Source of the DNA: Mongoliibacter sp.
Lineage (GTDB): Bacteria; Bacteroidota; Bacteroidia; Cytophagales; Cyclobacteriaceae
Length of the DNA: 34,132 nt
Assembly (NCBI RefSeq): GCF_007692705.1
Contig: NZ_REBN01000073.1
Coordinates: 1-34,132 of the forward strand
Reading direction: 5' to 3'
In this document: positions 10,666-13,956 of the stretch, in pieces
Numbering within the stretch: the stretch's first letter is position 1
Layout: every line of letters begins with the position of its first letter
The notes under the pieces: generated by a model
What the model saw: only the letters and a program-made list of their open reading frames with translations
The model's database searches: none
Told to the model about the DNA's origin: nothing
Translations under genes and position numbers: made by a program

Positions 10666-12207
10666 TCATCTTGCTCCATCATCTTTGGCTCTTTTGACTG
10701 CATAGGTTCCTACTTTTTTACCCTGATCTATTCCCACTTCAGCATCAAATCTATAATGTATTCCCCCATAAATTCTTGATACAGCTGCTTCTTCAGCCCA
10801 AAGTCTGAATTGAGTAGCATCATCCGGGAAAAAATAAGAAAGCACTTCTGCAGCAGCAGCGGAGAAAGTACTATGCCCTGAAGTATAGGCTGGAAAATTC
10901 GGTGTACCGAGAATGGTCTTGAAGCCGGGAATCGTCTCCACAGGTCTTGGGTAATGGTAATAGTATTTAGTGTCCCAGCAAGCTACACCTGCATCCATGA
11001 TTGCCGTATTCATATATGCAAATACCCTCGCTGACCGCAAAGGGTTGAACTTGTTTTTTACTATAGATTCTTTGGCAAACTTGTTCCAATGTCCTGGAGG
11101 TGTATAAGAACCAATTCCATCCTCCCACCAATTGGCGATTCTGCGTTGATTTAATGTCATATGAGAAGCAAATTTTTTAAGCTCTTGAACATCCCTTTCA
11201 AAGTCCTCTGATCCTGGAGAAGGAGGTGGTCCGGGCCTGACTTCCTCCACTGTCGGTACATTCCACATTTTTACCTGACCAAATAAAGGTGTCAAGCCAA
11301 CAGGTCTTTGTGGTGTTTCCATATTCTGCCATTTCCATCCAAATCTTTCAAAAGCTGAATTGGCAATTGAGTCAGATACTGGCTTTGGTGTTTGGGCTTT
11401 TGACATGCCATCAGTGGAAGCGCGTTGTCTCGCTAATTTAACCACTTCCTCTCCTATGCTTATTCCAGCTTCAATATCACTTGGAACGTTTATGCCAGAA
11501 TTAATCAGACTTTCTAGATGTTCTTGATATTTGGTTTCCAGATAGGTGAATTCCAAAGGAAACATGGTCTTTAGGATTTCCTTGGAAACAGCAGCAACAG
11601 TGGCACCATCTGATGGGTAGGAAGGGAGTTGGCTTGTTGCATAGGCAGGTACAATACTGTTGTCAATGTGATATGGTGCCATTCTATTGTATTCAAATTT
11701 GTAGTGCCAGGCCACTACCAAAGCATCAAATTGGGCTACACTCAAGTAAGCCAACATTCTACTCGTATAAGGCGGATGTGCAAATGGAAATGCTGGAGGG
11801 CCTTCAGGGTTTGTGGCATTGGGTAAGGTATAGGTGCCGTCTGGATTTGGGCCAGGAATCAGGTTATATTTTGCCGCAAGCTCTAAGGCTATTTCATTCC
11901 ATCTCAAAATAGGATTGTTGGTCCAATATTCCACGGCTTCTTTTTGAGAGGTAGAAAGCCCCGACATACGTTGCTTCAGTAAGTTTAGCTCTTCTTGATA
12001 AGCAGCAGAACTTATTGATTCCGGCTCAGAAATATTGATTTGGGTAGGATTTGAGACCAATATGGTCTTCCAAGTGCCTCCATTTTCATCCATATTTTCG
12101 AATTGATAACCCTCAAACTCATAGAAGTTTGGGGTTTCCTCAAGGCAAGAACTCAGCACTACAATAAACAATAGAAGCGCTAAAGGATATATTTTTAGAT
12201 TTTTCAT
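10666..12207 (-). CDS. PAP2/vanadium-haloperoxidase-like lipoprotein with internal duplication
   Basis: This 513-residue protein has a lipoprotein signal (LLLFIVVLSSC, lipidated C21), so it is membrane-anchored outside the cytoplasm. The C-terminal domain carries the three phosphatase/haloperoxidase motifs: K414-x6-R421-P422, S443-G444-H445, and S477-R478 with H484 and D488. Members hydrolyse phosphate esters or, with vanadate, oxidise halides; which applies is unknown. Residues 150-268 align without a gap to 394-512 (offset 244; I count 38 identities in 119), but the N-terminal copy lacks the key Arg, Gly-His and His. Two four-helix bundles are known in vanadium haloperoxidases, so this may be an old family duplication that stays unusually visible here. 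It starts 12 bases after the outer-membrane barrel gene, so the two form an operon. Confidence 0.85.
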   Translation of the reverse strand: MKNLKIYPLALLLFIVVLSSCLEETPNFYEFEGYQFENMDENGGTWKTILVSNPTQINISEPESISSAAYQEELNLLKQRMSGLSTSQKEAVEYWTNNPILRWNEIALELAAKYNLIPGPNPDGTYTLPNATNPEGPPAFPFAHPPYTSRMLAYLSVAQFDALVVAWHYKFEYNRMAPYHIDNSIVPAYATSQLPSYPSDGATVAAVSKEILKTMFPLEFTYLETKYQEHLESLINSGINVPSDIEAGISIGEEVVKLARQRASTDGMSKAQTPKPVSDSIANSAFERFGWKWQNMETPQRPVGLTPLFGQVKMWNVPTVEEVRPGPPPSPGSEDFERDVQELKKFASHMTLNQRRIANWWEDGIGSYTPPGHWNKFAKESIVKNKFNPLRSARVFAYMNTAIMDAGVACWDTKYYYHYPRPVETIPGFKTILGTPNFPAYTSGHSTFSAAAAEVLSYFFPDDATQFRLWAEEAAVSRIYGGIHYRFDAEVGIDQGKKVGTYAVKRAKDDGAR

Positions 12208-12219
12208 TGATCATTCAGG

Positions 12220-13140
12220 TTAATAAACTTTGAATTGGTAAGTTAGTCCAAGGCCCAATGTGGTAGCATTTCCCATATTTCGGCCACTGATGGTTTGGTT
12301 GAAATAAACCAAGGCTCCTAAGCCGCGGTCCGCCTTAATATAATACTGGGCCCAAGCCCCTACTTGACTGACTTCTGTTTTATTGGTTGGCTGAGGCCTG
12401 TTGTAAGACCTTATATCATCTCCTGTGAGACAATTCAAGCTCATGTAAGTAGCTTCTAACCTTAGCCTGTTTTCTAAAGCCCAATATCCTATAGCAGCAT
12501 GAAAATTAAGTGCATTTGGTACATTCATATATTGAGAGTAGACACTTCCATTTTCATAATAATAATTCCTCTCAATCTCTGTCTGCCCTCTCCATAGGTA
12601 AGCAAGGCCAGCTCTAAAAACCAAGCCGTTATCCAATTTGAATGCCCCAATTCCTCTCAAACCAATCTCAGGGGCACCAAATCCAATACTGAAAGGCATA
12701 TAGTCAGAAAGGTAATTCCCCATTGGTCTTCCAAAATGAGTATTGGTGAGGAAAAGTAAATTTCCTTTTCCCATTTGTTTCTGAAGCCAGTTTACTTTGA
12801 CAGATATACTGAGGTCCTGAATCCCCCGTTGACCTACTTGAGTACCACTTGAGGGATTGGTACTTACATATGGCAGAGAGGCAATGATATTGACATTTTG
12901 GGTCAGACCCATAGCAATCATAGGCATTCCCATTTGTCTCGTAAACGTGCCGATATTGGCATTTTCACGCAGGTAGGTTCCCTCCCAATATTGATCCCAT
13001 GAGGAATGTTCATAAATTAAGGCAGCACAGATTTCCCCCTTTTCCATCATGACTTCGTCCCAAGGGGTTTGTGCGTTGGATTTAAAATGTGAAATACCCA
13101 AAATCACCAATCCCATGATTATTGGTAATAATTTTTTCAT
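12220..13140 (-). CDS. Outer-membrane beta-barrel protein (phenol-degradation MetA-like transporter family)
   Basis: 306 residues with a signal peptide ending near SNAQ (residue 24). The remainder shows amphipathic beta-strand alternation with many aromatic residues at strand ends, finishing in GLGLTYQFKVY, a typical outer-membrane barrel C-terminus. The pattern (GMPMIAMGLTQNVNIIASLPYV, GIQDLSISVKVNWL) resembles the family annotated as transporter or MetA-pathway of phenol degradation; substrate is unknown. It is upstream of the PAP2 lipoprotein in the same operon, which suggests that the two act together at the envelope. No consensus promoter was recognised in the roughly 270 bases upstream (13141-13410), where I see no gene, only an AT-rich region with a weak CCACC/GGTGG inverted repeat at 13211-13234. 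Confidence 0.75.
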   Translation of the reverse strand: MKKLLPIIMGLVILGISHFKSNAQTPWDEVMMEKGEICAALIYEHSSWDQYWEGTYLRENANIGTFTRQMGMPMIAMGLTQNVNIIASLPYVSTNPSSGTQVGQRGIQDLSISVKVNWLQKQMGKGNLLFLTNTHFGRPMGNYLSDYMPFSIGFGAPEIGLRGIGAFKLDNGLVFRAGLAYLWRGQTEIERNYYYENGSVYSQYMNVPNALNFHAAIGYWALENRLRLEATYMSLNCLTGDDIRSYNRPQPTNKTEVSQVGAWAQYYIKADRGLGALVYFNQTISGRNMGNATTLGLGLTYQFKVY

Positions 13141-13410: not shown

Positions 13411-13956
13411 TCAAACAAGCTCTGGAGGAGGGGTGTTGAGGTTTATGATTTGCATTTTGTAAGCTGAAAAAATAAACCCTATCAATTTGTTTTCTTCGCC
13501 GGTAAACGGTTCTAGCTGAAAATCATTAAACGGTTGTGTGTAATCTTTTGCAAAAATTTTCGTGATCAGGCTGCTGTTGCTTCCATCTGGTAATTCATCT
13601 TGGATCAAAGAACTCACCCACTGCTTGATGGTATTGTCTAAGTTGTTTTTGGCCGAATCAGTAACATAAATGAGTTGAAGTGTGTCTTTGACATAGCGCT
13701 GTTTAATCGCCCTGTAAGTTTGCCCATTCTTTTCAAATGTAGTATTGGAGGGTCTAAACTCCTCTTCGTCGGCCATATAAGGCAAAGAAAGCGGAATTTC
13801 CAAAAGTCTTTCCTCCAATTCATCAGCATTGTCACTGTATATTTTCTCAACCCATTGACTTTCTAGCTGTAGGTTGAATGAAAAGTACACCACATAATAC
13901 CCGAAATGGTACAATCCGAAACAAAATAGAAGGAATATGGCCAGTACTTTTCTCAA
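13411..13956 (-). CDS. Membrane-anchored hypothetical protein
   Basis: 181 residues. Residues 4-26 form one hydrophobic helix (AIFLLFCFGLYHFGYYVVYF), either an uncleaved signal anchor or a signal peptide. The rest is soluble with mixed charge and ends in a proline cluster, LNTPPPELV. Short proteins with this layout, a single N-terminal helix containing GYY and a PPP tail, occur in Bacteroidota as far as I recall, but I know no function. A well-formed promoter precedes it (13976-14004), giving a leader of about 15-20 bases. No clear terminator was seen. It lies apart from its neighbours and gives no functional context. Confidence 0.7.
   Translation of the reverse strand: MRKVLAIFLLFCFGLYHFGYYVVYFSFNLQLESQWVEKIYSDNADELEERLLEIPLSLPYMADEEEFRPSNTTFEKNGQTYRAIKQRYVKDTLQLIYVTDSAKNNLDNTIKQWVSSLIQDELPDGSNSSLITKIFAKDYTQPFNDFQLEPFTGEENKLIGFIFSAYKMQIINLNTPPPELV

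Follow-up and report, generated by a model that had tools for sequence, protein, structure and literature searches.

A bacteroidotal haloperoxidase-like lipoprotein with two tandem copies of a PAP2-type domain, the first lacking catalytic residues

Contig NZ_REBN01000073.1 (34,132 nt; the window hereafter means this whole stretch of DNA) encodes a 513-aa lipoprotein in which a PAP2-type domain is present twice, in tandem. We propose, with a probability of about 0.73, that this secreted lipoprotein arose by an ancient duplication and fusion of a whole PAP2-type domain, the C-terminal copy being the enzyme and the N-terminal copy a pseudo-domain. Proteins laid out like the window lipoprotein are called here the 513 type, and their features are listed in Table 1. 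The LSSC stretch at Cys21, which we take from its motif to be a lipobox, presumably anchors the protein as a lipoprotein. A Pfam scan identified PAP2 (PF01569) in the C-terminal half (E 2.9e-12; 46.9 bits, cut-off 27.2) and VCPO_2nd in the N-terminal half at residues 155-181 (E 2.3e-6), and both domains were matched by all 24 proteins scanned (E up to 1). Scanning for promoters and terminators returned 14 and 6 candidates, respectively, against shuffled means of 10.6 (sd 3.8) and 3.1 (sd 2.1).

Table 1. Coordinates of the lipoprotein gene, of the parts of its product, of the partner gene and of related genes in other loci (window positions unless a locus is given).
Feature	Position	Strand	Basis or remark
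513-aa tandem-duplicated PAP2/vanadium-haloperoxidase-like lipoprotein gene	10666..12207	-	ORF
Cys21 codon, lipobox-like stretch LSSC	12145..12147	-	Cys21 invariant in 24 rows of the alignment
N copy, leading helices, residues 56-117 (predicted 68-82, 86-96, 99-113)	11857..12042	-	profile alignment and model
Stretch in N copy only, residues 118-144	11776..11856	-	profile alignment
N copy core, residues 145-268, gapless against 389-512	11404..11775	-	alignment and model
N core predicted helices 145-173, 178-181, 200-215, 217-236, 242-264	within 11404..11775	-	model
S199-D200-G201, dead counterpart of S443-G-H445	11605..11613	-	alignment
N240, counterpart of nucleophile/vanadate-ligand His484	11488..11490	-	His in 0/60 513-type proteins
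Linker, residues 269-321, aligned collinearly with that of 450-aa haloperoxidase-like proteins	11245..11403	-	profile alignment
C copy, leading helices, residues 322-388, TPPGHW motif	11044..11244	-	profile alignment and model
C copy catalytic core, residues 389-512; Pfam PAP2 403-496	10672..11043	-	Pfam, alignment, model
Live-site S443-G444-H445 (with K414, R421, R478, H484, D488)	10873..10881	-	alignment
Outer-membrane-barrel-like partner gene, 306 aa, 12-bp gap	12220..13140	-	just upstream of the lipoprotein gene
Distant barrel relatives beside fasciclin-domain lipoprotein genes	L076:3322-5226; L077:3106-5231
447-type genes	L101:441-1781; L102:675-2012

The original prediction held that residues 150-268 align without gap to residues 394-512 at an offset of 244, and a recount gave exactly the 38 identities in 119 positions that it had claimed. 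The best ungapped segment at this offset spans residues 144-267 and 388-511 and has a BLOSUM62 score of 152, compared with at most 49 for the best ungapped score in 200 whole-sequence shuffles at offsets of 100-399. Similarly, the gapped local alignment of the N part (21-300) with the C part (301-513) scored 169, compared with at most 59 (mean 33, sd 5) when the C part was shuffled 2000 times. Comparing the profiles of the two halves, as had been suggested as a check (31 N rows, 30 C rows), gave a probability of 99.9 and an E-value of 1.4e-31 over 187 columns, and takes in the leading helices (YW...RWN in the N half, WW...HWN in the C half). These data confirm that the tandem repeat is real. 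The core is gapless, as claimed; however, the repeat is longer than claimed, as residues 56-117 match residues 322-388 upstream of the core with gaps, five additional residues being present in the C copy and about 27 (118-144) in the N copy only. The view that such a repeat is unusual did not hold within the 513 type: N-versus-C scores lie 13.6 to 33 sd over shuffles (200 each) in the first 32 proteins collected, a set that includes that of the window and one protein cut by a contig end. Because the halves are 32% identical and the 513-type layout is shared by many families of the phylum, the duplication is old, and a recent tandem duplication is ruled out on the same two grounds. A chance alignment is ruled out by the shuffles and the half-profile comparison, and independently by the sequence match between the N half and acid phosphatases.

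The active-site residues paired in the original prediction (K170/K414, A177/R421, S199-D-G201/S443-G-H445, L234/R478, N240/H484 and D244/D488) are all correct. The C copy carries the entire PAP2 motif KX6RP-SGH-SRX5HX3D (K414...R421P, S443GH, SR478...H484...D488), which the N copy lacks: both Arg, both His and the Gly of SGH are gone, so that the prediction that this copy cannot be catalytic is well supported by the sequence. Conservation of the two sites was followed in 60 proteins of the 513 type and nine of a second type described below, which are those fetched from a longer list of relatives; L046 and L155 were excluded as truncated at contig ends and L141-L143 as belonging to other types, together with duplicate retrievals of a gene and the genes of L168-L170. 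Of the 60 513-type proteins, all except L047 have a complete C-copy site (59/60). In the N copy, with the counts below not representing independent events because the set contains close relatives (for example 13 loci), the Lys is kept in 59 proteins, the Ser in 55 (Cys in three, Asn in two), the Arg of KX6RP in five, the His of SGH in one and the second Arg in 36, while the last position is Asp in 56 and Glu in four. The position of the nucleophile/vanadate-ligand His is His in none of the 60 and Asn in 52, and the Gly position of SGH is occupied by an acid in 59 (Glu in 42, Asp in 17) and by Asn in the remaining one. A paralogue dead in both copies was also found (L047 / L078:4437-5942; L168:11741-13246), with SDQ in place of SGH and the nucleophile His changed to Ser or Tyr. 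Its two representatives, L047 and L168:11741-13246, come from two species of one genus, are 75% identical and each have their own barrel gene; an acid at the SGH Gly position is seen again in their separately inactivated C copy.

A second group of two-copy proteins, 440-458 aa long and for which we coined the label 447 type (L101, L115, L102, L144, L145, L146 and L147), was reached by searching with an acid-phosphatase stretch and then with L101. Both copies of L101 (E 3.4e-37 and 1.7e-42) and of L102 (E 4.3e-33 and 5.5e-42) clearly match the C-copy profile. Nine rows were collected, seven of which have an alignable first copy; in L117 and L140 the N copy was trimmed, and these two may not belong to the type. 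The 447 type resembles the 513 type in its tandem order, its dead first copy and the acid at the Gly position (7/7), loss of the nucleophile His and acquisition of this acid being common to both types. It differs in that its first copy keeps more of the site residues: Lys and Asp are present in all seven, as is the second Arg, the Arg of KX6RP in five and the His of SGH in four, whereas Cys replaces Ser and Glu replaces Gly in all seven, and the nucleophile His is replaced throughout, by V, A or Q. The 447 first copies are thus less decayed than the 513-type N copies. At the SGH position they read CEH in four cases, CES in one and CEW in two, and from this signature the site has possibly been repurposed. 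In the C copy of the 447 type, AGH is found in place of SGH in three of the nine proteins, including L146 and L147.

At the level of predicted structure, the full-length AF2 model (24 rows; pLDDT 88.5, pTM 0.89) contains eight pairs of helices that correspond one to one between the halves: 68-82/334-349, 86-96/352-360, 99-113/370-384, 145-173/389-417, 178-181/422-425, 200-215/444-459, 217-236/461-480 and 242-264/486-509, with an offset of 244 in the core and of 266-271 upstream. The N half folded alone (19 rows; pLDDT 81.3) superposes on the catalytic bundle of 4cit (residues 205-447; Z 18.7, 2.1 Å, 195 residues), best of all on the acid phosphatase 7f17 (Z 19.1, 2.9 Å, 189 residues), and also on the C-terminal catalytic bundles of NapH3, NapH1 and V-CPO; helical bundles can reach Z values of about 13 by their common arrangement, and those of the N half exceed this level. 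Neither of the two outcomes that the original prediction named as refuting it was observed: the comparison of the half profiles is significant, and the N half fits the catalytic bundle of known haloperoxidases, represented here by 4cit and these other structures. The whole model superposes on residues 22-443 of 4cit over both bundles (Z 33.4, 2.8 Å, 353 residues), so that the N copy would occupy the place of the N bundle of ordinary haloperoxidases, and the predicted protein has the vanadium haloperoxidase architecture, a two-bundle chain with the site in the C-terminal bundle. The model also fits both bundles of the two-bundle enzymes fungal vanadium chloroperoxidase (V-CPO; 1vnc etc.), NapH1, NapH3 and XhnO11 (Z 23.7-25.4), to which sequence matches of the window lipoprotein are short (residues 379-425 for V-CPO, 151-181 for NapH3). 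Class A acid phosphatases (7f17, PhoN and the E. blattae enzyme) share the motif, and the N half alone fits their single bundle (Z 18.2-19.1); however, they have one live copy per chain and no dead copy, whereas the window lipoprotein has two copies in one chain and cannot be placed among them.

The closest architecture is that of the Zobellia vanadium-dependent iodoperoxidase (4cit/4usz) and of the 450-aa haloperoxidase-like proteins, which have two bundles and the same live site as the 513 type. The N half of the 450-aa proteins (20 proteins) matches the 513 N half with a probability of 95.9 (E 6.5e-9), compared with 28.4 (E 6.1e-4) for the 513 C half. The full-length 513 and 450-aa profiles are collinear from residue 143 of the window lipoprotein onward to its C-terminus, an alignment of 340 columns that takes in the linker; since collinearity starts at this residue, the 450-aa N half corresponds by alignment to the core of the N copy without the leading helices. 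The 513 N half, in contrast, is a complete copy; the 450-aa C half has inserts that both 513 halves lack. Counting against our reading, the 20-protein profile revealed no detectable similarity between the 450-aa N half and its own C half (probability 6.1).

Three trees of the separate halves (513N and 513C for those of the 513 type) were built. The first comprised 47 rows, drawn from 14 of 32 513-type proteins, 12 of 20 450-aa proteins and seven of eight single PAP2s, without the 447 clade. It left the order of 513N, 513C and the 450-aa C half (450C) undecided (AU p 0.429 and 0.43 for two alternatives), and its best topology placed 513N with 450C at a support of 49/0, which we also count against the preferred explanation. 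The second comprised 16 of 60 513-type, six of nine 447-type and eight of 20 450-aa proteins, together with four of eight single PAP2s and four of five acid phosphatases, L112 being dropped from the latter for its broken frame; the third was the second minus five rows and 11 catalytic columns. In the second tree, for which, as for the third, the program issued a long-branch warning and the groups were chosen after the 447 clade and a tree had been seen, the C copies of the three families form one group (98/89) and the N copies another (93/82), and N and C copies group together (95/80) apart from the four acid phosphatases and four membrane PAP2s. The C-copy group holds in the third tree (99/95), where the N copies do not form a single clade (recovered in 1% of bootstrap trees) and the outgroup branches between them. 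A topology that joins the two halves of the 447 clade is rejected (AU p 0.0142), whereas one that joins 513N with 513C is not (p 0.0858). As the C copies of the three families group apart from the N copies, the duplication most likely predates these families, and a single duplication before the 513, 447 and 450-aa families split is the simplest reading of these sequences. The suggestion that an ancestral duplication may be general among haloperoxidases is therefore favoured by the 450-aa comparison and the two later trees, although the first tree left the order open; overall, the original interpretation is supported.

Two other histories of the N half have to be weighed against this reading. 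The N bundle of the 513 type could have been replaced later by a new duplicate of the C domain of the same protein, in which case the repeat would be uninformative on haloperoxidases generally. In hhalign the 513 N half indeed scores higher against its own C half (203) than against the 450-aa C half (123), and such an event, unrejected by the first tree, is only weakly disfavoured by the third; yet the 450-aa N half prefers the 513 N half over the 513 C half, order and linker are collinear, the C copies cluster apart from the N copies, and the same idea is rejected for the 447 clade. We therefore regard a later, independent duplication as improbable. A fusion, in which an acid-phosphatase-type PAP2 domain was joined as N half to a haloperoxidase domain, would explain why the N-half profile scores the acid phosphatase 7f18 (E 6.2e-12) well over 4cit (E 5.8e-4) among PDB sequences, and would be in line with the outgroup falling among the N copies once the catalytic columns are removed and with the Trp three residues before the catalytic Lys in two of four acid phosphatases. 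However, where the C half has HWN in the leading helices the N half reads RWN, N and C copies form one group apart from acid phosphatases and membrane PAP2s when the catalytic columns are kept, and the match between the halves takes in the leading helices, whereas the match to acid phosphatases covers about 90-100 core residues. This fusion thus appears distinctly improbable, and an ancient duplication of one domain remains the preferred explanation.

What the C copy catalyses is less firmly indicated. A Trp three residues before the Lys and a Phe five residues before the Ser are thought to mark haloperoxidases, as in V-CPO. Phe438 is present in 59 of 60 513-type proteins and in all 12 450-aa C halves, and absent from the seven single-domain PAP2s and the four acid phosphatases. 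Trp411 is present in 60/60 513-type proteins; it does not separate haloperoxidases from phosphatases, because it is also found in two of the four acid phosphatases in the tree (the closely related L109 and L113). The nearest solved relative by sequence is 4cit (E 4.2e-22), compared with 1.2e-9 for the best acid phosphatase. We infer from these sequence signatures that the chemistry would be haloperoxidase-like rather than purely that of a phosphatase. That the C copy is mainly a phosphatase or phosphoesterase nevertheless has a substantial chance, somewhat short of even, as the catalytic motif and the PAP2 Pfam match are common ground for both kinds of enzyme, Trp411 is uninformative, and according to PMC4859513 phosphatase activity has been reported for fungal V-CPO.

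The lipoprotein gene has a near-invariant neighbour. A barrel-like gene lies upstream of it in 30 of the first 31 loci, the partner of L047 being found in the adjoining L009/L078, and in 59 of 60 513-type loci (58 identified by script, plus L015); in L148, with only 192 bases upstream, its presence cannot be judged, in L047 and L103-L108, with flanks of 186-452 bases, it is seen in part, and the gap between the genes reaches 210 bases in L163 and 517 in L159. Among 295 genomes of the class, the same 17 that have a full-length lipoprotein hold a barrel match of E 2.8e-43 or better, and three further genomes have weak matches (E 1.6e-10 to 6.3e-6). In two of these three, a fasciclin-domain lipoprotein gene adjoins the weak barrel relative; the two genes share a strand in G247 but not in G188, where they are on opposite strands and the barrel match carries an in-frame stop. 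No barrel gene was seen upstream of the nine 447-type genes within the short flanks examined. The window partner protein gave only a PdxA match below the cut-off in Pfam (E 0.22), did not match PF13557 or PF05736 at E 0.1 and had no match in NCBIfam; the profile of its family matched no PDB sequence up to E 1. Among 21 members of this family, PF05736 matches three and PF13557 two. Other genes are found nearby: in G145 (L080:6006-9847) the barrel and lipoprotein genes are immediately preceded by a gene for a 451-aa haloperoxidase-like protein, so that both types are clustered, and a similar match is located at the edge of L013. A 181-aa ORF upstream of the pair in the window (13411-13956, minus strand), with no match in NCBIfam, has relatives at this place in 18 of 31 loci, many of the flanks being too short for a judgement.

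The outer membrane is the probable site of action of the lipoprotein enzyme, in partnership with the barrel-like protein encoded upstream. The lipoprotein might instead serve the barrel protein chiefly as a structural or binding partner, with catalysis secondary or lost in some lines. The near-invariance of the pairing, the retention in two species of the doubly dead paralogue together with a barrel gene of its own, and the fasciclin-domain lipoprotein genes beside weak barrel relatives all point in this direction; however, the C-copy site is complete in nearly all 513-type proteins and conservation is higher in the C core than in the N core (mean pairwise identity 65% versus 54% in 30 proteins), which makes a mainly non-enzymatic role unlikely.

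In the model that we prefer, one whole PAP2-type domain would have been duplicated and fused anciently to give the two-copy lipoprotein. The C copy would perform vanadate- or phosphate-dependent chemistry, as suggested by its complete site, whereas the N copy would be a pseudo-domain that keeps the full predicted fold but not the nucleophile/vanadate-ligand His; almost all members are also without the SGH His and the KX6RP Arg, and an acid replaces the SGH Gly. Such a copy could serve as a structural or binding module: it may take the place of the second subunit of dimeric relatives, pack beside the C copy and support, stabilise or cover its active site. The account in PMC9144378, in which fungal V-CPO has two bundles per chain and an algal enzyme is a dimer with one bundle per monomer, fits the N copy standing in for a second subunit. 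The retained Lys, Ser and Asp of the N copy, with the new acid neutralising the Lys, may together make an inert, self-filled anion pocket. Most likely this duplication also underlies the two-bundle architecture of the 450-aa proteins, whose N bundle would be the same copy worn further, and the barrel protein would be the outer-membrane partner of the lipoprotein. A bolder scheme, tentative and as a whole rather doubtful, is that the two-bundle haloperoxidase fold is what remains of one PAP2 duplication of which the 513 and 447 types are living intermediates, that the acid at the SGH Gly made the first-copy site a self-plugged pocket, and that the lipoprotein and its partner form an obligate two-gene device at the outer membrane, in which selection can still maintain even a fully dead version of the lipoprotein.

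A duplication and fusion in the origin of haloperoxidases from acid-phosphatase-like enzymes has been proposed (PMC4859513), the N bundle being termed variable and the C bundle alone conserved in that paper. Relative to it, the sequence-level evidence, the graded intermediates and the barrel-like partner gene in 59/60 loci are new. No earlier paper on the repeat at the sequence level was recognised in the open-access literature, subscription journals lying mostly outside the search, and the two bundles may well have drawn comment in earlier structural work. Taken together, the 513 type and its relatives retain in their sequences an old doubling from which two-bundle haloperoxidases probably arose. 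The likeness of the bundles is visible in one sequence, over a whole domain, and as relatives stand at different stages of active-site decay, the order of events becomes testable, i.e. which residue was lost first and how the dead half serves the live half. The near-invariant partner gene provides a handle on the cellular role of bacteroidotal haloperoxidase-like proteins.
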